Below are positions 1 to 24,455 of a DNA stretch of 24,455 bases, piece after piece. Location of the stretch: positions 1-24,455 of the forward strand of contig NW_003130001.1 of NCBI RefSeq assembly GCF_000003605.2, in the 5' to 3' direction. Under the pieces are notes generated by a model, which was given only the letters and a program-made list of their open reading frames with translations, did not search any database and was not told the origin of the DNA. Position numbers and translations under genes: made by a program. Source of the stretch: Saccoglossus kowalevskii (lineage: Eukaryota; Hemichordata; Enteropneusta; Harrimaniidae). Positions within the stretch are counted from its first letter, which is position 1, and every line of letters begins with the position of its first letter.

Positions 1-886
1 CAACCACCTATGTGGTATGGAACATACATGTATTGACAACAATTTGTCGATAGGTGACATTTAATAATTAGCAGACAATTTTAAAATATGGAAATCATAA
101 TTGTGGTGGAACTGCTCTTTTTGCTAGCAGACACTAATTAAATCACTAATTACAGTAAAAATATTGAGTGTGCACCTTAACCACCTATGTGGTATGAAAC
201 ATACATGTATGGACTACAATTTGTGATAGGTGACATTTAATAATTAGCAGACAATTTTAAAATATGGAAATCATAATTGTGGTGGAACTGCTCTTTTTGC
301 TAGCAGACACTAATTAAGTCACTAATTACAGTAAAAATATTGAGTGTGCACCTTAACCACTTATGTTATATGAAACATACATGTATTGACTACCATTTGT
401 GATAGGTGACATTTAATAATTAGCAGAAAATTTTAAAATATGGAAATCATAATTATGGTAGAACTGCCCTATCTATTTGCTAGCAGACACTAATTAAGTC
501 ACAAATTACAGTAAAAATATTGAGTGTGCACCTTAACCACTTATGTGGTATGAAACATACATGTATTGACTACCATTTGTAATAGGTGACATTTAATAAA
601 TAGCAGACAATTTTAAAATATGGAAATCATAATTGTGGTGGAACTGCCCTTTTTGCTAGCAGACACTAATTAAGTCACAAATTACAGTTAAAATATTGAG
701 TGTGCACTTTAACCACCTATGTGGTATGAAACATACATGTATGGACTACAATTTGTGATAGGTGACATTTAATAATTAGCAGACAATTTTAAAATATGGA
801 AATCATAATTGTGGTGGAACTGCCCTTTTTGCTAGCAGACACTAATTAAGTCACAAATTACAGTTAAAATATTGAGTGTGCACTTT

Positions 887-1958
887 AACCACCTATGTGG
901 TATGAAACATACATGTATGGACTACAATTTGTGATAGGTGACATTTAATAATTAGCAGACAATTTTAAAATATGGAAATCATAATTGTGGTGGAACTGCC
1001 CTATCTATATGCTAGCAGACACTAATTAAGTCACTAATTACAGTAAAAATATTGAGTGTGCACCTTAACCACTTATGTGGTATGAAACATACATGTATTG
1101 ACTACAATTTGTAATAGGTGACATTTAATAATTAGCAGACAATTTTAAAATATGGAAATCATAATTATGGTAGAACTGCCCTATCTATTTGCTAGCAGAC
1201 ACTAATTAAGTCACAAATTACAGTAAAAATATTGAGTGTGCACTTTAACCACTTATGTGGTATGAAACATACATGTATTGACTACAATTTGTGATAGGTG
1301 ACATTTAATAATTAGCAGACAATTTTAAAATATGGAAATCATAATTGTGGTGGAACTGCCCTTTTTGCTAGCAGACACTAATTAAGTCACAAATTACAGT
1401 TAAAATATTGAGTGTGCACTTTAACCACCTATGTGGTATGAAACATACATGTATGGACTACAATTTGTGATAGGTGACATTTAATAATTAGCAGACAATT
1501 TTAAAATATGGAAATCATAATTGTGGTGGAACTGCCCTATCTATATGCTAGCAGACACTAATTAAGTCACTAATTACAGTAAAAATATTGAGTGTGCACC
1601 TTAACCACTTATGTGGTATGAAACATACATGTATTGACTACAATTTGTAATAGGTGACATTTAATAATTAGCAGACAATTTTAAAATATGGAAATCATAA
1701 TTATGGTAGAACTGCCCTATCTATTTGCTAGCAGACACTAATTAAGTCACAAATTACAGTAAAAATATTGAGTGTGCACTTTAACCACTTATGTGGTATG
1801 AAACATACATGTATTGACTACAATTTGTGATAGGTGACATTTAATAATTAGCAGACAATTTTAAAATATGGAAATCATAATTGTGGTGGAACTGCCCTAT
1901 CTATATGCTAGCAGACACTAATTAAGTCACTAATTACAGTAAAAATATTGAGTGTGCA
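887..1958 (+). repeat. Three-unit higher-order repeat (~536 bp period) in left arm
   Basis: Units starting at 887 and 1067 recur at 1423 and 1603 with the same private variants (GTATGGACT then GTATTGACT, CTATCTATATG then CTATCTATTTG, GTGGTGG then ATGGTAG). By eye the two 360-bp stretches are identical. The third unit of each trio, at 1247 and 1783, differs by the CTTTTTG/CTATCTATATG length variant. This is what unequal crossing-over or replication slippage over a three-unit block leaves behind. Confidence 0.75.
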
Positions 1959-2820
1959 CCTTAACCACTTATGTTATATGAAACATACATGTATTGACAA
2001 CAATTTGTAATAGGTGACATTTAATAATTAGCAGACAATTTTAAAATATGGAAATCATAATTGTGGTGGAACTGCCCTATCTATATGCTAGCAGACACTA
2101 ATTAGTCACTAATTACAGTAAAAATATTGAGTGTGCACCTTAACCACTTATGTTATATGAAACATACATGTATTGACTACAATTTGTGATAGGTGACATT
2201 TAATAATTAGCAGACAATTTTAAAATATGGAAATTATAAATGTTTTGGAACTGCTCTTTTTGCTAGCAGACACTAATTAAGTCACAAATTACAGTTAAAA
2301 TATTGAGTGTGCACCTTAACCACCTATGTGGTATGAAACATACATGTATTGACTACAATTTGTGATAGGTGACATTTAATAATTAGCAGACAATTTTAAA
2401 ATATGGAAATCATAATTGTGGTAGAACTGCCCTATCTATTTGCTAGCAGACACTAATTAAGTCACTAATTACAGTAAAAATAATGAGTGTGCACCTTAAC
2501 CACTTATGTGGCATGAAACATACATGTATTGACTACAATTTGTGATAGGTGACATTTAATAATTAGCAGACAATTTTAAAATATGGAAATCATAATTGTG
2601 GTGGAACTGCCCTATCTATATAATGCTAGCCAGACACTAATTTAAGTCACAAATTACAGTTAAAATAATTGAGTGTGCACCTTAACCACCTATGTGGTAT
2701 GAAACATACATGTATTGACTACCATTTGTGATAGGTGACATTTAATAATTAGCAGACAATTTTAAAATATGGAAATCATAATTATGGTAGAACTGCCCTA
2801 TCTATTTGCTAGCAGACACT

Positions 2821-3960
2821 AATTAAGTCACAAATTACAGTAAAAATATTGAGTGTGCACCTTAACCACCTATGTGGTATGAAACATACATGTATGGACT
2901 ACAATTTGTAATAGGTGACATTTAATAATTAGCAGACAATTTTAAAATATGGAAATCATAATTATGGTAGAACTGCCCTATCTATTTGCTAGCAGACACT
3001 AATTAAGTCACAAATTACAGTAAAAATATTGAGTGTGCACCTTAACCACCTATGTGGTATGAAACATACATGTATGGACTACAATTTGTAATAGGTGACA
3101 TTTAATAATTAGCAGACAATTTTAAAATATCGAAATCATAATTATGGTAGAACTGCCCTATCTATTTGCTAGCAGACACTAATTAAGTCACAAATTACAG
3201 TAAAAATATTGAGTGTGCACTTTAACCACTTATGTGGTATGAAACATACATGTATTGACTACAATTTGTGATAGGTGACATTTAATAATTAGCAGACAAT
3301 TTTAAAATATGGAAATCATAATTGTGGTAGAACTGCCCTATCTATTTGCTAGCAGACACCAATTAAGTCACCAATTACAGTTAAAATATTGAGTGTGCAC
3401 CTTAACCACTTATCTGGTTTGAAACATACATGTATTGACAACAATTTGTAATAGGTGACATTTAATAATTAGCAGACAATTTTAAAATATGCAAATCATA
3501 ATTGTGGTATAACTGCCCTATCTATATGCTAGCAGACACTAATTAAGTCACTAATTACAGTAAAAATATTGAGTGTGCACCTTAACCACCTATGTGGTTT
3601 GAAACATACATGTATTGACTACAATTTGTGATAGGTGACATTTAATAATTAGCAGACAATTTTAAAATATGGAAATCATAATTGTGGTATAACTGCCCTA
3701 TCTATATGCTAGCAGACACTAATTAAGTCACTAATTACAGTAAAAATATTGAGTGTGCACCTTAACCACCTATGTGGTATGAAACATACATGTATGGACT
3801 ACAATTTGTGATAGGTGACATTTAATAATTAGCAGACAATTTTAAAATATGGAAATCATAATTGTGGTATAACTGCCCTATCTATATGCTAGCAGACACT
3901 AATTAAGTCACTAATTACAGTAAAAATATTGAGTGTGCACCTTAACCACCTATGTGGTAT
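2821..3960 (+). repeat. Runs of nearly identical neighbouring units in left arm
   Basis: The 180-bp units covering 2821-3000 and 3001-3180 differ at one base by eye (GGAAATC versus CGAAATC at 3131). The units from 3541, 3721 and 3901 are likewise almost identical. Neighbour identity above the array average indicates recent local single-unit duplication. Confidence 0.7.
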
Positions 3961-5191
3961 GAAACATACATGTATGGACTACAATTTGTGATAGGTGACA
4001 TTTAATAATCAGCAGACAATTTTAAAATATGGAAATCATAATTATGGTAGAACTGCTCTTTTTGCTAGCAGACACTAATTAAATCACAAATTACAGTTAA
4101 AATATTGAGTGTGCACCTTAACCACCTATGTGGTATGGAACATACATGTATTGACAACAATTTGTGATAGGTGACATTTAATAATTAGCAGACAATTTTA
4201 AAATATGGAAATCATAATTGTGGTGGAACTGCTCTTTTTGCTAGCAGACACTAATTAAGTCACTAATTACAGTAAAAATATTGAGTGTGCACCTTAACCA
4301 CCTATGTGGTATGAAACATACATGTATTGACTACAATTTGTGATAGGTGACATTTAATAATTAGCAGACAATTTTAAAATATGGAAATCATAATTGTGGT
4401 GGAACTGCCCTTTTTGCTAGCAGACACTAATTAAGTCACAAATTACAGTAAAAATATTGAGTGTGCACTTTAACCACTTATGTGGTATGAAACATACATG
4501 TATTGACTACAATTTGTGATAGGTGACATTTAATAATTAGCAGACAATTTTAAAATATGGAAATCATAATTGTGGTAGAACTGCCCTATCTATTTGCTAG
4601 CAGACACTAATTAAGTCACTAATTACAGTAAAAATATTGAGTGTGCACCTTAACCACCTATGTGGTATGAAACATACATGTATGGACTACAATTTGTGAT
4701 AGGTGACATTTAATAATTAGCAGACAATTTTAAAATATGGAAATCATAATTGTGGTGGAACTGCCCTATCTATTTGCTAGCAGACACTAATTAAGTCACT
4801 AATTACAGTTAAAATATTGAGTGTGCACCTTAACCACCTATGTGGTATGAAACATACATGTATTGACTACAATTTGTGATAGGTGACATTTAATAATTAG
4901 CAGACAATTTTAAAATATGGAAATCATAATTGTGGTGGAACTGCCCTATCTATTTGCTAGCAGACACTAATTAAGTCACTAATTACAGTTAAAATATTGA
5001 GTGTGCACCTTAACCACCTATGTGGTATGAAACATACATGTATTGACTACAATTTGTGATAGGTGACATTTAATAATTAGCAGACAATTTTAAAATATGG
5101 AAATCATAATTGTGGTAGAACTGCCCATCTATGCAATTTAAATCACCAATTTAATTAAAAATATCGGGTGTGCACTGTCATTTAGCTTCCA

Positions 5192-5218
5192 CTCATTAAT
5201 TATCACTATATTAATGAG
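5192..5218. other. Perfect 9-bp hairpin at inner edge of left arm
   Basis: CTCATTAAT (5192-5200) and ATTAATGAG (5210-5218) are perfect reverse complements around a 9-base loop. The hairpin lies about 15 bases inside the last degenerate repeat unit. It is AT-rich and could be chance. It is listed because another short perfect hairpin marks the outer edge of the right arm. Confidence 0.5.
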
Positions 5219-5329
5219 ATTATCGCAATCTATATGCACTCTAGCATTACGGTAACTTATCAACCTCTGCTACACTTCTGTCGATATGATCACCATACTG
5301 CTGTTGTGTATACTTCGTGTTATTCTTGT

Positions 5330-5706
5330 AATAACCTCATAATATTATTATACATCTGTCACCGTAATGCCAGAAGTTACAGCATGCCGTAATTGTGCGG
5401 TATTTTATGGGGTATTTTCATCCTACCATATAAGGAAATGCAAATTCCAAATATGGAATGATTACATGCATAAGCGTCCTCTAATGATAAAAACAAACAT
5501 GGCTGCCGCTAGACTTTGAATTGACTCCACACAAAGAAGTTCGCTGATTCTGTTCTAAACATTTTGGACCTCAGCTTTCCCATTATGTACCTTTGGAAGG
5601 AAAAGATGTATAATAGTAAGGTTATTCTGAGGATATCTCAAAATATGCACTCAGACGGTATGCCGTTGCATCAACCTCATAATAACCTCATAATATTATT
5701 ATACAT
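5330..5706 (+). repeat. 26-bp direct repeat, copies 351 bp apart
   Basis: The stretch beginning AATAACCTCATAATATT and ending TTATACAT occurs at 5330-5355 and again at 5681-5706 with no mismatch seen. The second copy is preceded by an extra CCTCAT, giving a short local tandem. It is outside the arm repeats and unrelated to their unit. It may flank an old insertion of about 325 bp or be a local duplication. Confidence 0.65.
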
Positions 5707-7137
5707 TTTTTCCCTGCTTTTAATAATAATTAATGAAACTATAACACAAAATCGCAATAAAGAATCTTTAGCATTATGCAATATTTAATAGTGTTCTTGT
5801 GTCTGAAGTGAACAAAAGAATGTGACGTTAAAGTGACACATAATTTTCTAAATAAGGAAGACATACAAATGCATCAATAACATTTTTGAACACATCTGTA
5901 TGTGACATTTCAAAGATTGGTGAATTGTATTCGGTCTCAGAAATATAATAAAGGTGCTGTTGTTTGAGGTGTACTTGTGGTATTATATGTGGGGGTGAAA
6001 GTGCGTATATATGAATCATTGCTTTCACTCATAATGTCACAATCGTCATACGGTTCACATTCAAATTTTAAATAAAAAATGTATTTTACGTAAGTTGTAC
6101 GCATGGGACTCATCTATGACACAACATGTTATGACGACTGTGACAATGACACTGGTAACAGTTATAATAATGGAATGCAACACATTTCATTGAAGTTCAA
6201 ACGAGTTTATTTAAAAGTTTTCTGTAAAAACATTAAAAAAAATTCATTTCCAAAAATGATTTGTCGAAACAAATTTCATTGTGGTAAACAATGACAATAG
6301 ATTTTCCTAATTGAATTTAAAAAAAACAAACATATTCACTAACCAAATATAAACTGTGATTATTTGTGTGTGATAATTATTGACAGGTCAAAAAAATTCA
6401 AAGCTCAGTGATAATTGTGCCAAAATTTTAATGAGCTTTTCAGGTTGTCTTTTCAAAATTTTTTGTTAATTCCCTAAAATAAGTAATTTTTACTGATGAC
6501 TTATCACAAAAAATCCTATGCTATGATATTTCCTGTACTGGGAGTGCATACATTTTCCCTGATAATTAGATCAAGAATATATGATGAATGCAGTAAGGCA
6601 CAAAATATCTGCAAGATATAAAATTGTAATGTTAAAAAAAACAAAATTTAAAAGCAGGTCCAATTTACTGTGGGTAAGTTTCAGATGATGTGATCTCACC
6701 CGAAACATTTATGCTTATGGACTACTGTCATGTCCTATTTGTCTTAACAGTGTCTGATGCCATAGCAGATACCCACAAAGCTGTACATTGTGTGATACCT
6801 GCAGCCCAGGAAAGGATGGATGGGGTGATGACATGATTACCATGGTTTTAAATTCTGAAAAGAAAGAATTCTGAAATAAGAAATCTTTGAAATCAGACTT
6901 CTACCAAAGGTAATTCTGGGATTTATGGACGGCCTAAAGTTTGTGGCTGTTTTTCAACAGCTACAAATTTTAGTACTGGTTACTTAGGGATGCTTGCATC
7001 CCTAGGCTGCTGGTTTTTCCAGCGCTCTCAGATGCTTGTATTTCAAACTTGGAGCTTTTGGATAGTAAAGCCGATCAAGTTTTAATCAAGCCGATCACGT
7101 TATAGGTAGGCATGACTGAACATTGTAAAACTAAGCT

Positions 7138-7153
7138 ATTTATTTATTTATTT
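7138..7153 (-). promoter_or_regulatory. Candidate polyadenylation signal cluster
   Basis: On the minus strand the tract AATAAATAAATAAATA overlaps and directly follows the TAA stop of the Ulp1-ParB frame (stop at 7150-7148). It holds overlapping AATAAA hexamers at 7139-7144 and 7143-7148. It is the first dense AATAAA cluster seen after the coding tract, which fits transcript end formation downstream of this module. A simple TTTA-type microsatellite is the alternative. Confidence 0.4.
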
Positions 7154-8401
7154 GTCTAATGGACAAGTGGCAGAAGCATCAAATCCAAGATCGGAAGGTG
7201 TAATTGGCAATTGCTGTATCTGGATCAGACACCCTTTCCATGATGGAACTTTTTGCCATTCATTTCCATGAATATCTGTTAAGTCATTAAGAAATACTGT
7301 TGAAATCACTATTGGTATCCATTTTATATTTAATTCTTTCGCAATACGTATTCGATGATTGCCATCATATAAGTATGCATGTCCAGTGTCAAGTTTAACT
7401 GAGAGTGTAAGTGGTTCTGAAATTTTGAAATTTTCACGGATAATTTTTGGTTTTATAAATCCATCAAGGAAGTCACTTCTCTTGCTTGGATTTTTAATTA
7501 CTCTTCTATCTACCTCCCGATATCTCCAAATTACAGATGTTTCTACCCATTCGACTGACCGTTTATATAGTTTAGGTATATTAACTTTTTGTTTATCAAG
7601 TGAAAATCTTCTATCTTGCAATTTTGTTTGCTCTATTTTACCTGTTGTTTGAATGGTTTTAATATTGGTTTCACTTGTAATTTGCTTTCTAACTAGGATA
7701 TTCTGTGTAATTAGTTCATATGCCATGGTAACTCTCATGCTGTTTAGCATCTCTAAACTTGTGTCTACTGACAATGGTGCATCAAGCAATATGCACTTGG
7801 CATATGCACAAATTAACAACCCACAGTTTTGTGTATCATTCTGCTTTATGAATAATTTATTTTGAGACAAGACTTTTACAGTCCATTGGGTTAAATGATT
7901 TTTATTTCCATATCTTAATAGATGTATAAATTGTATGTATTTAAATAGCTGTTCTAAAAGGTGTTCGCCATTACTATCAAGTGGGCCATAAGGATCAATT
8001 ACATAAATTTCCTGTAGTTTAATTTTGACTATAAATATAATCCAGTGTGATCCCCTTAAATTTGAAGGTATATAGATATATTCATAATTGAACCAATTTG
8101 TTTGTCTATAGGGCATTGGTAACCCAGCATTTAATGAACTTGACAGTTTTTGGAGTGCCCAACAAGCATCTTGGACTAAAATTGTATTCTGTTTATTATT
8201 GCCTTCAACAAGAAGTCTTATGTATGATGTAATCAAACAGTCATCTAGCCAATGTCCATTTATTAAATCAAAGATACATTGTTTTTGTATATTTATCCCT
8301 ACCACTAAAATATCATCAATATCTCGCATATCCTCCAACATTTTCCCATACGTTTTCTTTCCAATTGATATTACAATTTTATTTTTACCACAACTATTCA
8401 T
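7148..8401 (-). CDS. Ulp1/SENP-type (C48) cysteine protease with ParB/Srx-like C-terminus
   Basis: The 417-residue frame is intact. Residues ~45-205 match an Ulp1 peptidase: WLDD (51-54), catalytic His in GSHW (H119), Asp in YVIDPYG (D136), oxyanion Gln (Q187) and Cys in QNCGLLIC (C193), so the triad is complete. Ulp1 enzymes cleave SUMO or related modifiers from targets or mature precursors. Residues ~315-370 look ParB-like: IREN, a short beta segment, then YLYDGNHRIRIAKEL (DGNHR at 346-350) and WIPIVIS, the signature shared by ParB N-domains and sulfiredoxins. The frame is open for about 19 codons upstream of the chosen ATG (to a stop near 8459), consistent with an ancestral fusion to the USP module. 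The ParB call rests on one motif and is less sure than the protease. Confidence 0.8.
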   Translation of the reverse strand: MNSCGKNKIVISIGKKTYGKMLEDMRDIDDILVVGINIQKQCIFDLINGHWLDDCLITSYIRLLVEGNNKQNTILVQDACWALQKLSSSLNAGLPMPYRQTNWFNYEYIYIPSNLRGSHWIIFIVKIKLQEIYVIDPYGPLDSNGEHLLEQLFKYIQFIHLLRYGNKNHLTQWTVKVLSQNKLFIKQNDTQNCGLLICAYAKCILLDAPLSVDTSLEMLNSMRVTMAYELITQNILVRKQITSETNIKTIQTTGKIEQTKLQDRRFSLDKQKVNIPKLYKRSVEWVETSVIWRYREVDRRVIKNPSKRSDFLDGFIKPKIIRENFKISEPLTLSVKLDTGHAYLYDGNHRIRIAKELNIKWIPIVISTVFLNDLTDIHGNEWQKVPSWKGCLIQIQQLPITPSDLGFDASATCPLDK

Positions 8402-8447
8402 ATCATTATCAGAGCTATGTTTGAATTTAATATCGGATGATGAATAT

Positions 8448-9431
8448 TTACTCTTGAGTTATTCTGTCATAAAATGCTATGCATTCCTCTGCCTCAAAAC
8501 AGTCAGTGTGAAGTTTACTAAATGTACAAAATGATTTATTCTGTGGGCTGGACATAGATGTGAGTTCCCACTTCCCAACATTTTTAATATAAGTATTGTA
8601 TTGTACGTTTCCAGAACTAACAGATTTACAAACAACAATGGTCTTCATTGAAAATACAGTCCTTTTACTTATAAAAGTTGGGAATTCATCAACAACCGCG
8701 GAAAGATCAAGATTTGCTGTTAGTTGGAAGTCAGTTGATGTTTTTTTTGTATAAAGTATTATTGTTTGTCCTACTTGAAAAATGTAAGGTTCTGCACTGG
8801 GCTTAAAACTTCTAAATTTATCTGGCTTTGTACATGTGTTAGAATTACATTTTGGATTCATAGGCTTTAATCTTATTTCATTTATTGCATTTTTAACAGA
8901 GTCTTTTGTGAAATTGTTGACAGGCAGGGATGTAATTTCTTTAATACCACTTGTTGACACAGTTTGACAGTGCAGACAATTAAAATGTTGTAATAGTTTA
9001 ATAACAAATTTCTTTTTACTTTGTGATGTTAGCATGTCTCCTAAAACATGATTTATAAACTTTATTGTAGATACATCTGCAAGTGGTTCACCTAGGTTCA
9101 TTGAAACTTTTTTCAGTATATTAAAATCTCCATGAATTATTTTTTTCATGGTATCATCTTTGTGTGTTTTTTGGCTTATTTCTGCTGCTATATTTTTAAC
9201 TGCCAAACAATTTTGCATTGCTGATAATAAAGTGTTTTGCCAGTGAGGTATGGGTGAAATTTTTTCTTTTATATCTTTTTCAAAAAATATTATGTACTCA
9301 TGATAATTTGGAGGAATTTGTGTAATGTGATAAGTGTCAGTATCATCACACATGATTGGAAGATTATCTTTCAGAATATAATGTTGAGACATAGTGACCA
9401 CAACTGGCTGTAGGGCCAGCATGAGATACAC
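8448..9431 (-). CDS. End of first USP plus second, degenerate USP-like domain
   Basis: The first codons (to about residue 14) overlap the previous frame and are probably not used. Residues ~20-52 complete the first USP catalytic fold: MCDDTDTYHI supplies the usual D-rich strand after the His box and YHEYIIFFEK the closing aYiLfY strand. Residues ~60-325 look like a second USP: Cys-box-like PHWQNTLLSAMQNC with Thr where the nucleophile is expected, a Q-box-like KKKFVIKLL, zinc ribbon CLHC (152-155) with CNSNTC (195-200), and a closing CIAFYDR. The GHY motif is replaced by VQYNTY. Both catalytic Cys and His therefore seem lost, suggesting a scaffold or ubiquitin-binding role. The frame ends 46 bp before the Ulp1 ATG. 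Confidence 0.6.
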   Translation of the reverse strand: MYLMLALQPVVVTMSQHYILKDNLPIMCDDTDTYHITQIPPNYHEYIIFFEKDIKEKISPIPHWQNTLLSAMQNCLAVKNIAAEISQKTHKDDTMKKIIHGDFNILKKVSMNLGEPLADVSTIKFINHVLGDMLTSQSKKKFVIKLLQHFNCLHCQTVSTSGIKEITSLPVNNFTKDSVKNAINEIRLKPMNPKCNSNTCTKPDKFRSFKPSAEPYIFQVGQTIILYTKKTSTDFQLTANLDLSAVVDEFPTFISKRTVFSMKTIVVCKSVSSGNVQYNTYIKNVGKWELTSMSSPQNKSFCTFSKLHTDCFEAEECIAFYDRITQE

Positions 9432-9987
9432 TTGACTTTATTATGTAGTTATTTTCACTAATAGGGTTTTTCATTAAAGGAGAAAGATAAATTTTGTTCT
9501 CCAGTTCAATTTCATTTTTGATTTTAGATAACCGTTTTGTTCTTTTATTCCAGCTGTGACTGGTCAATAATATGACAAGAATATTAGATATTGATTTAAT
9601 GAAGACTTGTGACGTGATTATTCGATTTTCATTTTTACATTGCAAACTCTCACAGTCTACGTGAATTTCCTCTCTTTCAAATAAACGCTGTAAAATATCT
9701 TGCAGTGTAAAACTATCTTGTTTTCGGTTAGTTGGGCAGTTTAGTTGTATGTAACTTAATATTTCATCTGTTCTTGTTTTATGCCCACATGTGTTGCAAG
9801 TTCTTTCTCGTGTTCTTATCATTTCTGTCTGTATGCCCCTGTACTTGAGGAATTTATCAAGGAAGTTAATATAAAATTCATGTGCATCATGTTGCTTCCT
9901 TAATTGTAATCTCGCTATTTGACTGCTAGACCTAAGTGTATTGGCCATATCTGTTTTTGTTAGAGACATTTTGGAAGTTGTTAACAT
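9364..9987 (-). CDS. USP deubiquitinase, middle and His-box part
   Basis: This 207-residue frame carries the core of a ubiquitin-specific protease (C19): QHDAHEFYINFL (32-43, the Q/DAHEF box), zinc ribbon CNTC (64-67) and CESLQC (112-117), a hydrophobic ILVILL strand (136-141) and the His box SHAGPTASCGHYVS (188-201) with catalytic H198. USPs remove ubiquitin from proteins. The catalytic Cys box lies in the preceding frame and the last strands in the next, so the domain is split over three frames by two frameshifts near 9998 and 9378. The annotated ATG is only the first in this frame. Reading upstream (ASVINK) matches the expected continuation, so the true start is not here. Confidence 0.75.
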   Translation of the reverse strand: MLTTSKMSLTKTDMANTLRSSSQIARLQLRKQHDAHEFYINFLDKFLKYRGIQTEMIRTRERTCNTCGHKTRTDEILSYIQLNCPTNRKQDSFTLQDILQRLFEREEIHVDCESLQCKNENRIITSQVFIKSISNILVILLTSHSWNKRTKRLSKIKNEIELENKIYLSPLMKNPISENNYIIKSSVSHAGPTASCGHYVSTLYSER

Positions 9988-9992
9988 CTTGT

Positions 9993-10538
9993 TTATAACT
10001 GATGCAAGTTGTCAAACGAAAATCGTTCATTTTGTGATACTTCTATGAAATCCCTGAGTGTTGATTGACTTTTCATCAGGGAATTCTTTACTGATTCACA
10101 GTGTAGAATACTTTGAACAACAGCATTAAACCAACAATTATTAGAAAAGTTTTCTAATCCAACAACAACATTACTATTTTCCGAAATCGTTTGAATTGAA
10201 TGATTTGGATCTGGTGTTGAAGGTGAGAAATGATTTAGTTCATCTTTTATTAAATCGGGTGTATTATGCCACTGTTGGCCAAGTTCTCTGTTGAAACGAT
10301 GTAAATCGTTTGGTCCTGAACATTGTTTTGTATTGCTAATAAATTTCTTGAATGTATCTGTTGACGTAGTACTTTTAATTTGTCTTAATTTTTGCGAAAA
10401 AACCTTTACTGACTTTGGTGGTGTGGCTTGATAAGAAAATGTTCTTTGTTTTTTTTCTTTTTTTGCTATCCCATTGTTCTCTAATTGTTGTTTGCATTTT
10501 GAGTTTCTTACCAACGAGAAGATTGCTAGTAAATGCAT
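9993..10538 (-). CDS. USP deubiquitinase, N-terminal Cys-box part
   Basis: The frame has 181 codons. Residues 127-148 are the USP Cys box, GLENFSNNCWFNAVVQSIL, matching the family pattern GLxNxGNxCYxNxxLQ, with nucleophile C135. The 120 residues before it are basic and Ser/Thr/Asn-rich with no fold recognised, and probably form the linker to the transposase. The first ~25 codons overlap the transposase C-terminal frame, so the ATG at 10538 is doubtful; entry by frameshift in the adjacent A-runs near 10455 is equally possible. It ends at TAA 9995-9993, where the following frame picks up the same domain, pointing to a one-base loss. Confidence 0.7.
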   Translation of the reverse strand: MHLLAIFSLVRNSKCKQQLENNGIAKKEKKQRTFSYQATPPKSVKVFSQKLRQIKSTTSTDTFKKFISNTKQCSGPNDLHRFNRELGQQWHNTPDLIKDELNHFSPSTPDPNHSIQTISENSNVVVGLENFSNNCWFNAVVQSILHCESVKNSLMKSQSTLRDFIEVSQNERFSFDNLHQL

Positions 10539-10697
10539 TTTGTTGACCTTTTATATCCCCATATACATCAGAAATAAATTCATCCAATCTGAGTGTTTTA
10601 CCGCCAAGTTGAATATTCTTTAAAATCCCCATTCTACGTTCACTATGACCTACTGTCCTTGCATTTCCCCTGTCAATGAAATTATAGTTTTTATTAG
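10375..10697 (-). pseudogene. Transposase C-terminal segment with putative catalytic Glu
   Basis: This frame is open from about 10698. It reads through RTVGHSERRMGILKN and then DEFISDVYGDIKGQ, the layout that ends the RNase-H-like core of Foldback/NOF MULE transposases, where a Glu in an xxE..f..lK context is the third catalytic acid. The SERR Glu is therefore the candidate. The segment continues the previous frame after a shift near 10700. An ATG at 10632 exists but lies after this Glu and is not a credible start. The last ~25 codons before the stop at 10375 are probably out of the ancestral frame, since the USP linker resumes in another frame after the A7/A8 runs near 10455. Confidence 0.55.
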
Positions 10698-11329
10698 TTA
10701 ATTTGTCTGTTCATGACGTATCAGATCTCCCAACAATAACCCAGACCAAAAAGGACATGTTGGTAAGTAATATTTGCACATAAAATCTGCTAATTTGGGT
10801 GAATAATATGCATTTGTCTTGATCATTTCTGTATGTTGTTGATTTTCAGCTTAAATTTTTGCCTTTTCTTTGATCTCATTGAAATGTTGTTTGAAATTTG
10901 AATTGAATGTTGTAGGAAAATCCTCTTCAGTTTGTTGGGCTAAAACAGTTTTTGTCTTTTCTTTTGAAAGATTATCTGGTTTTTCAATGCAATATTTAAT
11001 TGTGACCCCATCTAAATTATCAATGTTCCTGACTTTTGACTCCAAATGTTTGCATGCCTGTTCTAATGTTGGTGATTGTTGTTTACTGTGCAAAAGCACC
11101 ATTATTTTATACAAAGTTTCATCAAAATCATCTAAGTTTGGAGAATTTAAAAGAAGAATCATGCAATACATGATGCTCAGATTTGCTGATTTTTCACTAA
11201 TGAATGTTTTGAGTGAACGTTTAACCTTTTTCATGAAATGACTTGCATATGCATGAGGAATTGTTTTTTGCAAGTCATCCTTGCTTGATTGGCCATTGAC
11301 TATACGCCAGGCTCTTTGTAGAAAAGCTT
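10698..11329 (-). pseudogene. Transposase middle segment (CxxH-like and PFWSGLLLGDL regions)
   Basis: This frame opens just past the frameshift near 11335 with EAFLQRAWRIVNG, then IPHAYASHFMKKVKR, which sits where MULE transposases carry a C/H-x-x-H motif between the second Asp and the Glu; the Cys position seems to be Tyr here. A helical region follows (residues on to KEKAKI), then a TAA at 10853-10851. The same frame continues past that stop with TNAYYSPKLADFMCKYYLP and PFWSGLLLGDLIRH, which is strongly protein-like and fits the family, so the TAA is a nonsense mutation rather than the gene end. It closes at TAA 10700-10698. Confidence 0.6.
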
Positions 11330-12283
11330 CTAATATATTGTTTCCTGATTAAAAACTTCTAAAGTTGCCAAAAGAAAAACCCAGCTTTCATCACTGTTAA
11401 TTTGTAATGGTTGTGATATTTCATGAAATCCAAATATTGTTTTTTCTGCATGACGAAAACACTGCATCCAGAATGATATGTATGGTAAGCTGTGTGCTTC
11501 AGTGATCATAAAGGAAAGTGGGAGATCTGGCCCTTGACCAACTGGATTTGCAACTGTTAGTTCATAGTAAAACAAACGCCCAGATGATAATGTTGATTTA
11601 AGACATCCACCAGTAGCATCCCAGAAAGCCACAAACTTTTTACTCAAATCATGCCAAAACCGGACACCTGCTTCAGTAAAACAAACAACAAAAAGTGGTG
11701 AGACACTAAAATGTTGTATAAACCCTTTAACTTTACAATTTTGTTGGTTAGATGCCATTTCATCTTTCATTGTCAGAATACTTTGTATTTCATCATTATG
11801 TAGTCTTTTACTGGTTCTGGCTTCACTTGAAATTTTCTGAAATACACTTTGAGTTTTACCAGTTGTATTTCTGTTGCCTGAAAGAATCTGTTTTCCATCT
11901 AAATTTTCCATTTCTGTTATATAGTGTTTAAATGGCTTTGTACCAGCTGCAAATTTGTTTTCTAACTCACGTCTTCTCTCGCCACGAATGGGTCGAGCTA
12001 TATTTTCTGTTGGATCATGCTTCATTTTTCCTTCATAATATATTTCACATTTGTATAATTTTTTCATTTTTATTGTCACTGTCACACAACAGTGTTGCGA
12101 CTGACAATGACCTCGTGCTTGGAAAAAGCAGCCCTTTGGATTTGGGGAATTTGTTGTTGTGACTTTGTGATAATTAAACATTATAGCACAGTATGGATTT
12201 GACTGTGCAATACCCTTTTCAATTGTTGACTGCCATTCACCTTTTGGAAATAGTCTCCCAGTTTGATGTTTTCGAAGATGTTC
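11330..12283 (-). pseudogene. Transposase catalytic segment with DDE Asp-1 and Asp-2
   Basis: Counting from the ATG at 12181: a small Cys-rich region CFFQARGHCQSQHC (18-31), a basic linker with RPIRGERRREL, then FVAFWDATGG with candidate first Asp D188, PLSFMITEAHSLPYISFW (221-238), and INSDESWVFLLA with candidate second Asp D264. This order is what I know from Foldback/NOF-like MULE transposases, which cut and join DNA through a DDE RNase-H fold. The frame is open without break from the TGA at 12286-12284, and the 34 codons between (from EHLRKH on) look coding, so this is a continuation of the PHD segment and not a separate gene. It ends at TAG 11332-11330, created by an apparent extra TA. 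Confidence 0.65.
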
Positions 12284-13804
12284 TCATGTATTTGGGGGGA
12301 AAATGAAAGAGGATGATTTTGGTATATCATTCTCTACAAATCCAGAAGGCATGTCACAGCCAGACACATGTCTCATTGTATTAGGAGATATAAATTCTCT
12401 AATTAGTAATTTATTGGCTGGTTCATGTGAAGGAGAATAAATTTTCTTCTCCTGCTCATGTTGGTTAATTTCATTTTCACTATCACTAGATTCTGTGTCA
12501 TACTTGACACTACTGTCATTTAATTCTGTATTTGGTATTTCTCCAAGCTTTGCATTATAACTACCACTTTCCTTTTCTTGGTCATCACTGATGTTATTTT
12601 CAATTTCATATTTTGTATTATTGTTATTGTTACTATTTATAAAGTGACCAACCTTGCTTGACATTTGTTTTTGTACTTGTGTATCTATAATTATATTTTC
12701 CTGGCTATTACATAATTGAGACTGGTCATTATTTACAAATAGAACTAAATCTCTGGTTGAATCTGTTGAGTTTATTGCATTTAGTATTGGTGATTTATCT
12801 TCTATTGTTTTCCTAATATTTTCTTTTATTTCACTAGTTGGCATTTTTGTTCCATTAATCTCAAATACTGTACTACTATCGTTACATTTTTCTAAACCAC
12901 ACACAAATGTAATCCCTTTTCCAGATTTAAAACCAGAATTCAATTGCAAACAATCATAATGATACCATTCATTACACATTTGACATTTGATGTATTGTTT
13001 TTTTTTATCATATTTTGTTTTACAGACACAATATAACTTTTCACTTTTGTTTGAATTTTTTTCAGTACTTAACCATGATTGACGGCGAAACTTTTCTGGT
13101 AGCTTAGCATTTCGTTTTGGTCTGGCCTGTTTTTCTTTTTTCTCATTCGAAAGCTTGGGTGATTTATCAAATGAAGATTTATTGTTAAGATTAATCTTTT
13201 TATGTTTGTTATTTAGGCCTGTTTCCTTGTTATCCACTGTATTGACTAAGGATGATAGAAGATGTTGGATATTCCCTCTGTTTGCTCTCCATATCTCCTG
13301 TAAATATTTCACTGTTTTTTTGTTTGTAGGCCATGCAGCAGTTTTAGCTACTCTAGTCCAAAATGTTTTGTCTGTTATGTCCGGATATTCACTATCTAAA
13401 GGAAGTTGTACCCATATAGCTTCTGCTAAACAATTGTAGTCTCTAATTTTTCTATTGTTCACAAAACGTGATTGTTTTGATTCAGGGGCACCACCCAATA
13501 AACCGTCATGAATGTCAATTACCCTTTTAACTCTACAAGTACTGTTTTTGCATTTGTACTTCAAATCATGCAATTTGTACAAAGAGCTGCACCTGGGTGG
13601 CTTGATTGCAGCTGAGAACCCATTTCCTATGTCAGTCTTAAAATATCTTGAAAGAAAAAGTTGACTACAAGACATAGGAGTAGAGGTTCCTGTATTTGGA
13701 CGTTGGAGAGCAGAGGAACAAGTGTTGGAAGGTCTAACTGACCTTCTAGCACTCGAACAAGGCGGAGGGGAGGGACGAGTGCTGGAAATAATTATGATTT
13801 CCAT
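12284..13804 (-). CDS. Transposase N-terminal segment with PHD finger
   Basis: The frame has 506 codons. Residues 81-100 hold a Cys-pair stretch (C85, C90) vaguely like a FLYWCH-type zinc site. Residues 146-185 carry KTFWTRVAKTAAWP and YLQEIWRANRGNI, of unknown fold. A basic stretch at 222-241 is a probable nuclear localisation signal. Residues 257-308 are a PHD finger in the C4HC3 pattern: C259, C261, C274, C277, H282, C285, C302, C307, with W280 before the His. PHD fingers commonly read histone H3 tails. Residues 310-460 are acidic and Asn/Ser-rich linker. The TGA ending it is followed in the same frame by the transposase core. The first five codons are repeat-arm DNA; Met44 is an alternative start, because residues 7-43 have odd Ser/Pro/Arg composition. 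Confidence 0.75.
   Translation of the reverse strand: MEIIIISSTRPSPPPCSSARRSVRPSNTCSSALQRPNTGTSTPMSCSQLFLSRYFKTDIGNGFSAAIKPPRCSSLYKLHDLKYKCKNSTCRVKRVIDIHDGLLGGAPESKQSRFVNNRKIRDYNCLAEAIWVQLPLDSEYPDITDKTFWTRVAKTAAWPTNKKTVKYLQEIWRANRGNIQHLLSSLVNTVDNKETGLNNKHKKINLNNKSSFDKSPKLSNEKKEKQARPKRNAKLPEKFRRQSWLSTEKNSNKSEKLYCVCKTKYDKKKQYIKCQMCNEWYHYDCLQLNSGFKSGKGITFVCGLEKCNDSSTVFEINGTKMPTSEIKENIRKTIEDKSPILNAINSTDSTRDLVLFVNNDQSQLCNSQENIIIDTQVQKQMSSKVGHFINSNNNNNTKYEIENNISDDQEKESGSYNAKLGEIPNTELNDSSVKYDTESSDSENEINQHEQEKKIYSPSHEPANKLLIREFISPNTMRHVSGCDMPSGFVENDIPKSSSFIFPPNT
13748..13783. other. 8-bp inverted repeat beside inner edge of right arm
   Basis: AGCACTCG (13748-13755) and CGAGTGCT (13776-13783) are perfect reverse complements around a 20-base purine-rich, GC-rich spacer. 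Next to it GAAGGTC and GACCTTC (about 13728-13746) form a second small hairpin. The spot is the GC-richest part of the window and lies within the first codons of the N-terminal frame, or in its 5' leader if Met44 is the start. Confidence 0.45.
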
Positions 13805-16800
13805 ATTTTAAAATTTTCTGCTAATTATTAAATGTCACCTATCACAAATGGTAGTCAATACATGTATGTTTCATATACATAAGTGGTTAAAGTGCACACT
13901 CAATATTTTACTGTAATTAGTGACTTAATTAGTGTCTGCTAGCAAAAAGAGCAGTTCCACCACAATTATGATTTCCATATTTTAAAATTGTCTGCTAATT
14001 ATTAAATGTCACCTATCACAAATTGTAGTAAATACATGTATGTTTCATACCACAATAGTGGTTAAAGTGCACACTCAATATTTTTACTGTAATTTGTGAC
14101 TTAATTAGTGTCTGCTAGCAAAAAGGGCAGTTCCACCACAATTATGATTTGCATATTTTAAAATTGTCTGCTAATTATTAAATGTCACCTATTACAAATT
14201 GTAGTCATTACATGTATGTTTCATACCAGATAAGTGGTTAAGGTGCACACTCAATATTTTTACTGTAATTTGTGACTTAATTAGTGTCTGCTAGCAAATA
14301 GATAGGGCAGTTCTACCATAATTATGATTTCCATATTTTAAAATTGTCTGCTAATTATTAAATGTCACCTATTACAAATTGTAGTCCATACATGTATGTT
14401 TCATATAACATAAGTGGTTAAGGTGCACACTCAATATTTTTACTGTAATTTGTGACTTAATTAGTGTCTGCTAGCAAATAGATAGGGCAGTTCTACCATA
14501 ATTATGATTTCCATATTTTAAAATTTTCTGCTAATTATTAAATGTCACCTATCACAAATGGTAGTCAATACATGTATGTTTCATATAACATAAGTGGTTA
14601 AAGTGCAAACTCAATATTTTTACTGTAATTAGTGACTTAATTAGTGTCTGCTAGCAAAAGAGCAGTTCCACCACAATTATGATTTCCATATTTTAAAATT
14701 GTCTGCTAATTATTAAATGTCACCTATCACAAATTGTAGTCAATACATGTATGTTTCATACCACATAGGTGGTTAAGGTGCACACTCAATATTTTTACTG
14801 TAATTAGTGACTTAATTAGTGTCTGCTAGCATATAGATAGGGCAGTTCTACCATAATTATGATTTCCATATTTTAAAATTGTCTGCTAATTATTAAATGT
14901 CACCTATTACAAATTGTTGTCAATACATGTATGTTTCATACCAGATAAGTGGTTAAGGTGCACACTCAATATTTTTACTGTAATTTGTGACTTAATTAGT
15001 GTCTGCTAGCAAATAGATAGGGCAGTTCTACCAAAATTATGATTTCCATATTTTAAAATTTTCTGCTAATTATTAAATGTCATCTATCACAAATGGTAGT
15101 CAATACATGTATGTTTCATATAACATAAGTGGTTAAGGTGCACACTCAATATTTTTACTGTAATTAGTGACTTAATTAGTGTCTGCTAGCAAAAAGAGCA
15201 GTTCCACCACAATTATGATTTCCATATTTTAAATTTGTCTGCTAATTATTAAATGTCACCTATCACAAATTGTAGTCCATACATGTATGTTTCATACCAC
15301 ATAGGTGGTTAAAGTGCACACTCAATATTTTAACTGTAATTTGTGATTTAATTAGTGTCTGCTAGCAAAAAGAGCAGTTCTACCATAATTATGATTTCCA
15401 TATTTTAAAATTGTCTGCTAATTATAAATGTCACCTATCAAAAATTGTAGTCAATACATGTATGTTTCATGCCACATAAGTGGTTAAGGTGCACACTCAA
15501 TATTTTAACTGTAATTTGTGACTTAATTATGTGTCTGCTAGCAAAAAGAGCAGTTCCACCACAATTATGATTTCCGTATTTTAAAATTGTCTGCTAATTA
15601 TTAAATGTCACCTATCACAAATTGTAGTCAAGACATGTATGTTTCATGCCACATAAGTGGTTAAGGTGCACACTCAATATTTTTACTGTAATTAGTGACT
15701 TAATTAGTGTCTGCTAGCAAATAGATAGGGCAGTTCTACCACAATTATGATTTCCATATTTTAAAATTGTCTGCTAATTATTAAATGTCACCTATCACAA
15801 ATTGTAGTCAATACGTGTATGTTTCATATAACATAAGTGGTTAAGGTGCACACTCAATATTTTAACTGTAATTTGTGACTTAATTAGTGTCTGCTAGCAA
15901 AAAGAGCAGTTCCACCACAATTATGATTTCCATATTTTAAAATTGTCTGCTAATTATTAAATGTCACCTATCACAAATTGTAGTCAATACATGTATGTTT
16001 CATACCACATAAGTGGTTAAGGTGCACACTCAATATTGTTACTGTAATTAGTGTCTTAATTAGTGTCTGCTAGCAAATAGATAGGGCAGTTCTACCACAA
16101 TTATGATTTTCATATTTTAAAATTGTCTGCTAATTATTAAATGTCACCTATCACAAATTGTAGTCAATACATGTATGTTTCATATAACATAAGTGGTTAA
16201 GGTGCACACTCAATATTTTAACTGTAATTTGTGACTTAATTAGTGTCTGCTAGCAAAAAGAGCAGTTCCACCACAATTATGATTTCCATATTTTAAAATT
16301 GTCTGCTAATTATTAAATGTCACCTATCACAAATTGTAGTCAATACATGTATGTTTCATACCACATAAGTGGTTAAGGTGCACACTCAATATTTTTACTG
16401 TAATTTGTGACTTAATTAGTGTCTGCTAGCAAATAGATAGGGCAGTTCTACCACAATTATGATTTCTATATTTTAAAAATGTCTGCTAATTATTAAATAT
16501 CACCTATCACAAATTGTAGTCAATACATGTATGTTTCATGCCACATAAGTGGTTAAGGTGCACACTCAATATTTTAACTGTAATTGGTGACTTAATTAGT
16601 GTCTGCTAGCAAATAGATAGGGCAGTTCCACCACAATTATGATTTCCATATTTTAAAATTGTCTGCTAATTATTAAATGTCACCTATCACAAATTGTTGT
16701 CAATACATGTATGTTTCATACCACATAGGTGGTTAAGGTGCACACTCAATATTTTAACTGTAATTTGTGATTTAATTAGTGTCTGCTAGCAAAAAGAGCA

Positions 16801-17940
16801 GTTCTACCATAATTATGATTTCCATATTTTAAAATTGTCTGCTAATTATTAAATGTCACCTATTACAAATTGTAGTCAATACATGTATGTTTCATACCAC
16901 ATAGGTGGTTAAGGTGCACACTCAATATTTTTACTGTAATTAGTGACTTAATTAGTGTCTGCTAGCAAATAGATAGGGCAGTTCTACCACAATTATGATT
17001 TCCATATTTTAAAATTATCTGCTAATTATTAAATGTCACCTATCACAAATTGTAGTCAATACATGTATGTTTCATACCACATAAGTGGTTAAAGTGCACA
17101 CTCAATATTTTTACTGTAATTAGTGACTTAATTAGTGTCTGCTAGCAAAAAGGGCAGTTCCACCACAATTATGATTTGCATATTTTAAAATTGTCTGCTA
17201 ATTATTAAATGTCACCTATTACAAATTGTAGTCAATACATGTATGTTTCATACCACATAAGTGGTTAAGGTGCACACTCAATATTTTTACTGTAATTAGT
17301 GACTTAATTAGTGTCTGCTAGCAAATAGATAGGGCAGTTCCACCACAATTATGATTTCCATATTTTAAAATTGTCTGCTAATTATTAAATGTCACCTATC
17401 ACAAATTGTAGTCAATACATGTATGTTTCATACCACATAGGTGGTTAAGGTGCACACTCACTATTTTTACTGTAATTAGTGACTTAATTAGTGTCTGCTA
17501 GCAAATAGATAGGGCAGTTCTACCACAATTATGATTTGCATATTTTAAAATTGTCTGCTAATTATTAAATGTCACCTATCACAAATTGTTGTCAATACAT
17601 GTATGTTCCATACCACATAGGTGGTTAAGGTGCACACTCAATATTTTTACTGTAATTAGTGACTTAATTAGTGTCTGCTAGCAAATAGATAGGGCAGTTC
17701 CACCACAATTATGATTTCCATATTTTAAAATTGTCTGCTAATTATTAAATGTCACCTATTACAAATTGTAGTCAATACATGTATGTTTCATACCACATAG
17801 GTGGTTAAGGTGCACACTCAATATTTTTACTGTAATTAGTGACTTAATTAGTGTCTGCTAGCAAATAGATAGGGCAGTTCCACCACAATTATGATTTCCA
17901 TATTTTAAAATTGTCTGCTAATTATTAAATGTCACCTATT

Positions 17941-20900
17941 GCAAATTGTTGTCAGTACATGTATGTTTCATACCACATAAGTGGTTAAGGTGCACACTCA
18001 ATATTTTTACTGTAATTAGTGACTTAATTAGTGTCTGCTAGCAAATAGATAGGGCAGTTCTACCACAATTATGATTTCCATATTTTAAAATTTTCTGCTA
18101 ATTATTAAATGTCACCTATCACAAATGGTAGTCAATACATGTATGTTTCATATAACATAGGTGGTTAAGGTGCACACTCAATATTTTTACTGTAATTAGT
18201 GACTTAATTAGTGTCTGCTAGCAAATAGATAGGGCAGTTCTACCACAATTATGATTTCCATATTTTAAAATTGTCTGCTAATTATTAAATGTCACCTATC
18301 AAAAATGGTAGTCAATACATGTATGTTGCATACCACATAGGTGGTTAAGGTGCACACTCAATATTTTTACTGTAATTCGTGACTTAATTAGTGTCTGCTA
18401 GCAAAAAGAGCAGTTCCACCACAATTATGATTTCCATATTTTAAAATTGTCTGCTAATTATTAAATGTCACCTATCACAAATTGTAGTCAATACATGTAT
18501 GTTTCATATAACATAAGTGGTTAAAGTGCACACTCAATATTTTTACTGTAATTTGTGACTTAATTAGTGTCTGCTAGCAAATAGATAGGGCAGTTCTACC
18601 ATAATTATGATTTCCATATTTTAAAATTGTCTGCTAATTATTAAATGTCACCTATTACAAATTGTAGTCAATACATGTATGTTTCAAACCAGATAAGTGG
18701 TTAAGGTGCACACTCAATATTTTTACTGTAATTAGTGACTTAATTAGTGTCTGCTAGCAAAAAGGGCAGTTATACCACAATTATGATTTCCATATTTTAA
18801 AATTGTCTGCTAATTATTAAATGTCACCTATCACAAATGGTAGTCAATACATGTATGTTTCATACCACATAAGTGGTTAAGGTGCACACTCAATATTTTT
18901 ACTGTAATTAGTGACTTAATTAGTGTCTGCTAGCATATAGATAGGGCAGTTCTACCACAATTATGATTTCCATATTTTAAAATTGTCTGCTAATTATTAA
19001 ATGTCACCTATCACAAATTGTAGTCAATACATGTATGTTTCATACCACATAGGTGATTAATGTGCACACTCAATATTTTTACTGTAATTAGTGACTTAAT
19101 TAGTGTCTGCTAGCATATAGATAGGGCAGTTCTACCATAATTATGATTTCCATATTTTAAAATTGTCTGCTAATTATTAAATGTTACCTATCACAAATTG
19201 TTGTCAATACATGTATGTTTCAAACCAGATAAGTGGTTAAGGTGCACACTCAATATTTTAACTGTAATTAGTGACTTAATTAGTGTCTGCTAGCATATAG
19301 ATAGGGCAGTTATACCACAATTATGATTTCCATATTTTAAAATTGTCTGCTAATTATTAAATGTCACCTATCACAAATGGTAGTCAATACATGTATGTTT
19401 CATATAACATAAGTGGTTAAGGTGCACACTCAATATTTTAACTGTAATTGGTGACTTAATTGGTGTCTGCTAGCAAATAGATAGGGCAGTTCTACCACAA
19501 TTATGATTTCCATATTTTAAAATTGTCTGCTAATTATTAAATGTCACCTATCACAAATTGTAGTCAATACATGTATGTTTCATACCACATAAGTGGTTAA
19601 AGTGCACACTCAATATTTTTACTGTAATTTGTGACTTAATTAGTGTCTGCTAGCAAAAAGGGCAGTTCCACCACAATTATGATTTCCATATTTTAAAATT
19701 GTCTGCTAATTATTAAATGTCACCTATCACAAATTGTAGTCAATACATGTATGTTTCATACCAGATAAGTGGTTAAGGTGCACACTCAATATTTTTACTG
19801 TAATTTGTGACTTAATTAGTGTCTGCTAGCAAAAAGAGCAGTTCCACCACAATTATGATTTCCATATTTTAAAATTGTCTGCTAATTATTAAATGTCACC
19901 TATCACAAATTGTAGTCAATACATGTATGTTTCATACCACATAAGTGGTTAAGGTGCACACTCAATATTTTTACTGTAATTAGTGACTTAATTAGTGTCT
20001 GCTAGCATATAGATAGGGCAGTTCTACCACAATTATGATTTCCATATTTTAAAATTTTCTGCTAATTATTAAATGTCACCTATCACAAATGGTAGTCAAT
20101 ACATGTATGTTTCATATAACATAAGTGGTTAAAGGTGCACACTCAATATTTTTACTGTAATTGGTGACTTAATTGGTGTCTGCTAGCAAATAGATAGGGC
20201 AGTTCTACCACAATTATGATTTCCATATTTAAAATTGTCTGCTAATTATTAAATGTCACCTATCACAAATTGTAGTCAATACATGTATGTTTCATACCAC
20301 ATAGGTGGTTAAGGTGCACACTCAATATTTTTACTGTAATTAGTGACTTAATTAGTGTCTGCTAGCAAATAGATAGGGCAGTTCTACCATAATTATGATT
20401 TCCATATTTTAAAATTTTCTGCTAATTATTAAATGTCACCTATCACAAATTGTAGTCCATACATGTATGTTTCATACCACATAGGTGGTTAAGGTGCACA
20501 CTCAATATTTTTACTGTAATTAGTGACTTAATTAGTGTCTGCTAGCATATAGATAGGGCAGTTCTAGCATAATTATGATTTCCATATTTTAAAATTGTCT
20601 GCTAATTATTAAATGTCACCTATCACAAATTGTAGTCAATACATGTATGTTTCATACCACATAAGTAGTTAAAGTGCACACTCAATATTTTTACTGTAAT
20701 TAGTGACTTAATTAGTGTCTGCTAGCATATAGATAGGGCAGTTCAACCACAATTATGATTTCCATATTTTAAAATTGTCTGCTAATTATTAAATGTCACC
20801 TATCACAAATGGTAGTCAATACATGTATGTTTCATACCACATAGGTGGTTAAGGTGCACACTCAATATTTTTACTGTAATTAGTGACTTAATTAGTGTCT

Positions 20901-21520
20901 GCTAGCATATAGATAGGGCAGTTCAACCACAATTATGATTTCCATATTTTAAAATTGTCTGCTAATTATTAAATGTCACCTATCACAAATGGTAGTCAAT
21001 ACATGTATGTTTCATACCACATAGGTGGTTAAGGTGCACACTCAATATTTTAACTGTAATTTGTGACTTAATTAGTGTCTGCTAGCAAAACAAGCAGTTC
21101 TACCATAATTATGATTTCCATATTTTAAAATTGTCTGCTAATTATTAAATGTCACCTATTGCAAATTGTTGTCAGTACATGTATGTTTCATACCACATAA
21201 GTGGTTAAGGTGCACACTCAATATTTTTACTGTAATTAGTGACTTAATTAGTGTCTGCTAGCAAATAGATAGGGCAGTTCTACCACAATTATGATTTCCA
21301 TATTTTAAAATTTTCTGCTAATTATTAAATGTCACCTATCACAAATGGTAGTCAATACATGTATGTTTCATATAACATAGGTGGTTAAGGTGCACACTCA
21401 ATATTTTTACTGTAATTAGTGACTTAATTAGTGTCTGCTAGCAAATAGATAGGGCAGTTCTACCACAATTATGATTTCCATATTTTAAAATTGTCTGCTA
21501 ATTATTAAATTTCACCTATC
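17941..21520 (-). repeat. Two-unit block duplicated 3,220 bp apart in right arm
   Basis: The rare variant GCAAATTGTTGTCAGTACAT occurs at 17941 and 21161. The following ~360 bp match by eye at both places, including the TTTTCTGC and TATAACATAGG variants, before the copies diverge (AAAAATGG versus ACAAATTG). The offset equals 18 repeat units. This indicates long-range duplication or gene conversion within the arm. Confidence 0.7.
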
Positions 21521-24170: not shown

Positions 24171-24255
24171 TAATTATTAATGTCGCCTATCACAAATTGT
24201 AATCAATACATGTATGTTTCATACCATATAAGTCGATAAGGTGCACACTCAATAT

Positions 24256-24275
24256 TTCCCAAAAAATATTGGGAA
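24256..24275. other. Perfect 7-bp hairpin at outer break of right arm
   Basis: TTCCCAA (24256-24262) and TTGGGAA (24269-24275) are perfect reverse complements with a 6-base loop AAAATA. The hairpin sits exactly where the array stops matching its unit, so it may be part of the element terminus or of the insertion site. Confidence 0.55.
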
Positions 24276-24455
24276 TCGTGTTTATATACACGCACATAGA
24301 GATACACTTTCAGGGGAGTGAGTACATTTGTTAGAATTTCTCTGTTTAAATGAATATTAGCCATTTACATTAATATATTGATGTCAAACTGTGATTACGT
24401 GATGCAAAAGATGTGATAAACCTTGATTCAATGCATTATTATGCCTGATAGACTG
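24276..24455. other. Probable flanking DNA, nothing recognised
   Basis: 180 bases of AT-rich sequence with no match to the arm unit, no reading frame worth calling and no RNA gene seen. It is either host flank or a non-repeated outermost piece of the element; the left outer end needed to decide is outside the window. Confidence 0.5.

Follow-up and report, generated by a model that had tools for sequence, protein, structure and literature searches.

Foldback-type elements, among which the FB elements of Drosophila are counted, are transposons with long inverted termini built of tandem repeats. Rehavkus, a group known from arthropods and annelids, is set beside the Mutator-like elements (MULEs) and is described by a PHD finger, a minisatellite before the 3′ terminal inverted repeat (TIR), 9-bp duplications and one open reading frame (ORF) (PMC6446971; this and the other papers are cited for the passages of them that were available). 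Ulp1-type proteases are known in transposons, as an earlier note on the DNA described here had stated: they occur in Ginger1 and in Mutators of hydra, lancelet and plants (PMC2836005), in VANDALs (PMC13317346) and, as Ulp1-type peptidases, in oomycete Cryptons (PMC3212892). Because Ulp1 or OTU proteases recur in unrelated transposons, the ubiquitin and SUMO pathways have been suggested to act in transposition (PMC2836005). Here we describe a window of 24,455 nucleotides (the whole stretch of DNA that was analysed) from Saccoglossus kowalevskii, contig NW_003130001.1, in which two mutually inverted arrays of one tandem repeat enclose a core with a nearly continuous, broken coding tract. On balance, we read it as the damaged remnant of a formerly autonomous cut-and-paste transposon of the Rehavkus kind, related to MULEs, whose core probably encoded one protein of about 2,180 residues carrying, in this order, a PHD finger, a transposase, a USP deubiquitinase, a SENP/Ulp1 protease and a ParB-like end. 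The features of the window are, with the arrays and inner stretch first and the coding tract in its direction of reading:

2..5132, minus strand: left array, about 28.7 units of the 176/180-bp repeat (Tandem Repeats Finder, TRF); it reaches past the left end of the window
13790..24257, plus strand: right array, about 58.7 units of the same 176/180-bp repeat (TRF)
5133..7147, no strand assigned: inner stretch, apparently non-coding, that runs from the left array to where the coding tract ends, with a single ORF of at least 80 amino acids (87 amino acids)
12287..13804, minus strand: ORF piece 1, with the start codon, the N-terminal region and the PHD finger
12899..13033, minus strand: PHD finger (PF00628, E 4.4e-6)
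12284-12286, minus strand: in-frame stop after ORF piece 1
11333..12283, minus strand: ORF piece 2, probable transposase as judged from position and by-eye motif; the Asp codons 11618-11620 and 11390-11392 are catalytic candidates
10854..11348, minus strand: ORF piece 3, continuation of the probable transposase in another frame
10851-10853, minus strand: in-frame stop after ORF piece 3, beyond which the same frame continues to 10701
10378..10710, minus strand: ORF piece 4, probable C terminus of the transposase, with a candidate catalytic Glu codon at 10639-10641; for window starts from 10640 to 10496 the coding score is highest in this frame
9996..10550, minus strand: ORF piece 5, Cys box of the USP, with the catalytic Cys codon at 10134-10136 (UCH profile 1-34, E 1.5e-5)
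9367..10011, minus strand: ORF piece 6, middle part of the USP and its His box, with the catalytic His codon at 9394-9396 (UCH profile 50-220, E 5.7e-13)
8451..9437, minus strand: ORF piece 7, which completes the USP domain (Asp codon 9345-9347) and continues into about 286 residues without assignment
7151..8458, minus strand: ORF piece 8, SENP/Ulp1 protease and ParB-like domain, stop at 7148-7150
7694..8299, minus strand: Ulp1/SENP domain, with His 8045-8047, Asp 7994-7996, Gln 7841-7843 and Cys 7823-7825 (SENP2 alignment)
7301..7375, minus strand: ParB-like GNHR motif region (phrog_1033, ORF residues 339-387)

The coding signal is nearly unbroken on the minus strand from 13804 to 7148, a tract of about 2,180 codons in which two in-frame stops and six frame changes occur as breaks. 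Seven stop-to-stop ORFs of at least 150 codons lie on this strand between 13804 and 7148, with a sum of 2,153 codons, while 200 dinucleotide shuffles yielded none of that length (longest, 145 codons). Codon scores were computed with a model learned from the tract's own long ORFs, which makes them circular within these ORFs and less so at the frame changes; by this measure one frame leads across nearly the whole tract. Weak 99-nt windows begin at 11385, 10890, 10791, 8514 and 7227, and where the signal passes from frame to frame they are single, save for two consecutive ones at 10890-10700. The frame changes lie near 11340, 10705, 10480, 10000, 9400 and 8455, the one near 10480 adjoining runs of A. 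At all six the open frames abut or overlap and the coding signal shifts frame, on which grounds introns were rejected as the source in favour of small insertions or deletions. Decay or assembly error may have caused the breaks, as judged on one copy. The claim of the earlier note that domain halves continue over every stop and frame change was confirmed at both frame changes within the USP domain, and elsewhere we infer it from the coding signal. AATAAA starts 19 times on the minus strand of the tract, where 17.7 are expected from base composition, and such poly(A) signals were therefore uninformative as gene boundaries.

When parts of ORF pieces 5, 6 and 7 were joined, they gave one UCH match over positions 1-239 of the 254 in the profile (E 3.8e-21), so that the three pieces form a single USP domain (peptidase C19). 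Its Cys, His and Asp codons are all in place, its Cys box aligns with the Cys boxes of USP8, FAF-X and USP25, and the nearest solved structure is USP8 (E 2e-5). The Ulp1 protease proposed further downstream was likewise found, with matches to Peptidase_C48 (E 9.4e-11) and to the SENP2 chain 1tgz (E 3.2e-14); His, Asp, Gln and Cys line up with those of SENP2 and are the residues that we take to be catalytic. The C-terminal end of the same ORF is probably a ParB-like domain, as judged from a patch of 49 residues that matches phrog_1033 (E 3.6e-5 on the full ORF; other ParB-like families gave weaker matches). Here the earlier assignment was supported more weakly, by PHROGs and not by Pfam, which gave no match to this end even at E 10. 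Comparison with the PDB gave nothing credible (best E 0.28), and the single-sequence structure model, with a mean predicted local distance difference test (pLDDT) score of 36.0, was too poor for a fold search.

At the other end of the tract, PF00628 matched an 80-residue piece with E 4.4e-6 and 27.1 bits, above its cutoff of 24, and the whole ORF with 23.1 bits, slightly below it, in agreement with the PHD finger that had been proposed there. The finger lies upstream of the probable transposase in the same frame, with one stop between them. The middle of the tract is probably an RNase H-fold DDE transposase, a role suggested by its position and by motifs picked out by eye: a D (11618-11620), a second D 76 codons further on and an E inside the stretch ERRMGILK, candidates that may follow the MULE transposase pattern. 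The DDE transposase named outright in the earlier note was matched by no profile. Pfam gave nothing up to E 10 on the 636-residue transposase read-through, a result that a diverged protein might also give.

The 286 residues that follow the USP domain in ORF piece 7, a stretch about equal to it in length, had been described as a second USP; one of the two thus stands, and the second had no significant match. Pfam detected no UCH in it, BLASTP against the first USP aligned 29 residues (E 0.07), and hhalign of the two single sequences returned a probability of 0.5%. Pairwise alignment scores in four settings were reached by 269, 115, 129 and 89 of 500 shuffles, of which 115 and 89 refer to local alignment, and a hidden Markov model that combined the first USP with fragments of three solved USPs gave 2.1 bits, a score reached by 182 of the 1,916 shuffles reported out of 2,000. 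The PDB held no credible match (best E 0.36), and the single-sequence structure model of ORF piece 7 was too poor for a fold search (mean pLDDT 38.5). By eye, the stretch shows, in USP order, a Cys-box-like helix, a CxxC and the segment GNVQYNTYI, while other residues occupy the places of the catalytic Cys and His; these features were spotted after the fact and serve as a lead only. Were the stretch a USP, it would be one that has lost its catalytic Cys and His.

The core (5133-13789) is enclosed by two arrays of the same 176/180-bp repeat. The longest inverted pair between them is 1,456 nt with 96% complementarity, and among the matches listed the 25 longest pairs are 96-98% complementary. 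Identity between repeat units is 95.4% within the right arm, 96.1% within the left and 95.7% between the arms (62 of the 74 intervals were compared; the other 12 are about double in length, the anchor apparently missing a unit). As units are as similar between the arms as within them, the arms appear either to have exchanged sequence or to have expanded recently from a single source. The left array leaves the window, and the element is therefore longer than 24 kb, with its left end and target-site duplication out of view. The first ATG of the tract (13804) lies, at 13790-13804, within the innermost repeat unit. The 18-base box at this ATG recurs in exact copies: the right arm has 52 on its minus strand, of which this is one, and the left arm 26 on its plus strand, so that dozens of repeat units share the ATG context. 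With the start codon in repeat-derived sequence, the repeats may serve as a promoter or leader. A PHD finger together with satellite-like inverted termini points, by published description, to Rehavkus as the closest family, rather than to Foldback, which had been named, together with MULE, for this DNA.

Some further observations were made on the arrays and the inner stretch. Units of 176 and 180 bp are mixed in both arms, the four-base difference lying, by eye, near CTAGCAAA. The right array gives way abruptly to an imperfect palindrome at 24258-24281, CCCAAAAAATATTGGG (seen by eye and too imperfect for the repeat listing), followed by unique sequence; this could be the end of the element or an outer terminal domain. 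Within the inner stretch, an exact 27-base direct repeat occurs at 5329-5355 and 5680-5706, 351 bases apart. An Rfam scan of the window gave no match.

A single fused protein is favoured, and the case is better for the join of transposase and USP than for that of USP and Ulp1. At the first of these boundaries, both frames stay open over a shared stretch of 173 bases. When they are scored in 45-nt windows, named here by their starts, the transposase frame has the higher score as far as 10496 and the USP frame between 10484 and 10448; no frame stands out at 10436 to 10376, and at 10364 the USP frame is narrowly ahead again. The only ATG of the USP frame before the Cys box (10538) sits where that frame scores negative, which, with the handover of the scores, favours a transposase-USP fusion, in a comparison that carries no computed significance. 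At the second boundary, the frames abut at about 8455.

An alternative is that the modules were divided among two or three separate ORFs in close succession, PHD-transposase (with or without the USP) and Ulp1-ParB, with their own starts. The USP frame stops at 8448-8450 and the first ATG of the Ulp1 frame, at 8401, lies beyond it, making a separate Ulp1-ParB ORF possible, and additional ORFs occur in several MULEs (PMC6446971). However, just 46 bases separate this stop from this ATG, the Ulp1 frame is weakly positive in coding score upstream of the ATG, and the USP frame has for a start of its own only the ATG at 10538, in its negative-scoring stretch. We therefore regard separate ORFs as doubtful and a USP-Ulp1 fusion as likely. 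Of the polyprotein or very tight gene set that had been suggested, the transposase-USP fusion is the part that is favoured; the pair of USPs is not retained, and Ulp1-ParB may be an ORF of its own.

It is about as unlikely that the element belongs to another superfamily, whether a Foldback/NOF-type MULE or an undescribed group, and gained its repeat arrays and PHD finger independently. Tetris and Galileo, too, have tandem repeats within long inverted termini (PMC4079207), and a PHD finger and Ulp1 co-occur in a Ginger1 element (PMC2836005). Rehavkus, however, already joins a PHD transposase to satellite-like inverted termini of similar unit length. Among the Pfam matches of the tract pieces there was no integrase family such as the Gypsy-like core of Ginger1, which counts against the latter.

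The USP and Ulp1 domains might also be passengers, host-gene fragments caught by this copy in the manner of Pack-MULEs and without a role in transposition. A single copy was observed, and MULEs tend to take up fragments of host genes (PMC6446971), but both enzymes have their catalytic residues intact and lie on the same strand in abutting frames with no visible introns, and the capture of two enzymes and a ParB-like domain would be required; we consider this improbable. That the proteases process a polyprotein, as had also been suggested, is hardly credible: the order of the modules is all that speaks for it, USP and SENP/Ulp1 enzymes cleave after the C-termini of ubiquitin or SUMO, which makes autoprocessing unlikely, and no ubiquitin-like domain was present among the Pfam matches of the pieces scanned.

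Several points weigh against a Rehavkus-kind transposon with one giant fused protein. The codon scores derive from a model trained on the same tract, and one broken copy was available. No transposase profile matched in Pfam searches of the separate and joined pieces, nor in NCBIfam and PHROGs searches of pieces 2 and 3 only. Within the transposase pieces the only hit below 0.001 was ribonuclease Y on piece 3 (NCBIfam, E 3.5e-4), which at 19.3 bits is far under its cutoff of 937 and was set aside as probably reflecting a charged helical stretch. In the protein database, no homologue was found at E 0.001 (5,891 and 3,302 candidates) or at E 1 (2,331 candidates). Table 1 of PMC6446971 lists for Rehavkus a single ORF, a PHD finger and a minisatellite but no protease, and the word "protease" is absent from the available text of that paper. 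Finally, the likeness to Rehavkus is one of published description, and the window leaves the left end and the target-site duplication outside.

Viral contigs held no relative by protein or by repeat pattern, and prokaryote genome contigs held none either. As these collections are viral and prokaryotic, and the eukaryote share of the protein database is not stated, the absence of relatives says little.

The observations fit a transposon with a deubiquitinase and a deSUMOylase, and the domains by their kind indicate a eukaryotic host. In our working model, the transposase complex would bind the repeated ends and be tethered to modified histones by the PHD finger. The substrates freed of ubiquitin and SUMO by the fused USP and Ulp1 would be the transposase itself or host silencing and repair proteins present at the cut DNA, with the effect that the transposase would stay stable and the cut would be repaired. 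Judged from the content of modules and from the published suggestion on these pathways, removal of ubiquitin and SUMO at the element is the most likely mechanism. More tentatively, the element may represent a family of eukaryotic DNA transposons in which one giant enzyme combines a transposase, a histone-reading finger, a deubiquitinase, a deSUMOylase and a ParB-like domain, and strips ubiquitin and SUMO at its own transposition sites. If this is true, the presence of USP and Ulp1 beside a transposase would suggest that transposition meets ubiquitin and SUMO as two distinct obstacles, or uses them as two distinct tools, and inactivating the active sites singly would put their role to the test. 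The Rehavkus kind would then also include elements of a far greater size.

Compared with described systems, the element shares with Rehavkus a PHD finger with the transposase and satellite-like tandem repeats in the inverted termini, the unit being 164 bp in Rehavkus-1_TC. It differs in size (more than 24 kb against 9.5 kb), in the number of units (about 29, cut by the window, and 59 against mostly five and eight) and in its USP, Ulp1 and ParB-like modules, which are unmentioned for Rehavkus in the available passages (PMC6446971; PMC10218199). Foldback-type elements such as Tetris and Galileo resemble it in the tandem repeats of their long inverted termini (about 220 bp in Tetris), but Tetris copies are without conserved ORFs and the Galileo transposase has a THAP domain (PMC4079207).

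With the Ulp1-bearing MULEs (plant VANDAL/KIU elements, Mutators of hydra and lancelet), it has in common an Ulp1 protease, here in an element that is read as probably Mutator-like; a USP is unreported for them in the passages at hand, and in VANDALs the Ulp1 belongs to a VANC-type gene, one of three genes (PMC13317346, PMC2836005). A Transposase_11-Peptidase C19 protein of Trichomonas vaginalis likewise joins a USP-type deubiquitinase to a transposase, but its core is of the Transposase_11 (IS5-like) type and no Ulp1 is mentioned for it there (PMC2836005). While this USP-transposase protein is on record, a literature search that covered the matching papers in part, and had Repbase reports outside its range, found no description of USP and Ulp1 in one element, in line with the earlier note, which had regarded the combination as apparently undescribed. 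Ginger1 elements carry a transposase with a C-terminal Ulp1 or OTU protease, and one of them also has a PHD finger; they differ in their Gypsy-type integrase core, in TIRs of 44-270 bp and in having OTU instead of USP (PMC2836005). The Ginger1 elements in Table 1 of that paper hold at most one protease each, whereas the element described here has both a USP and an Ulp1.

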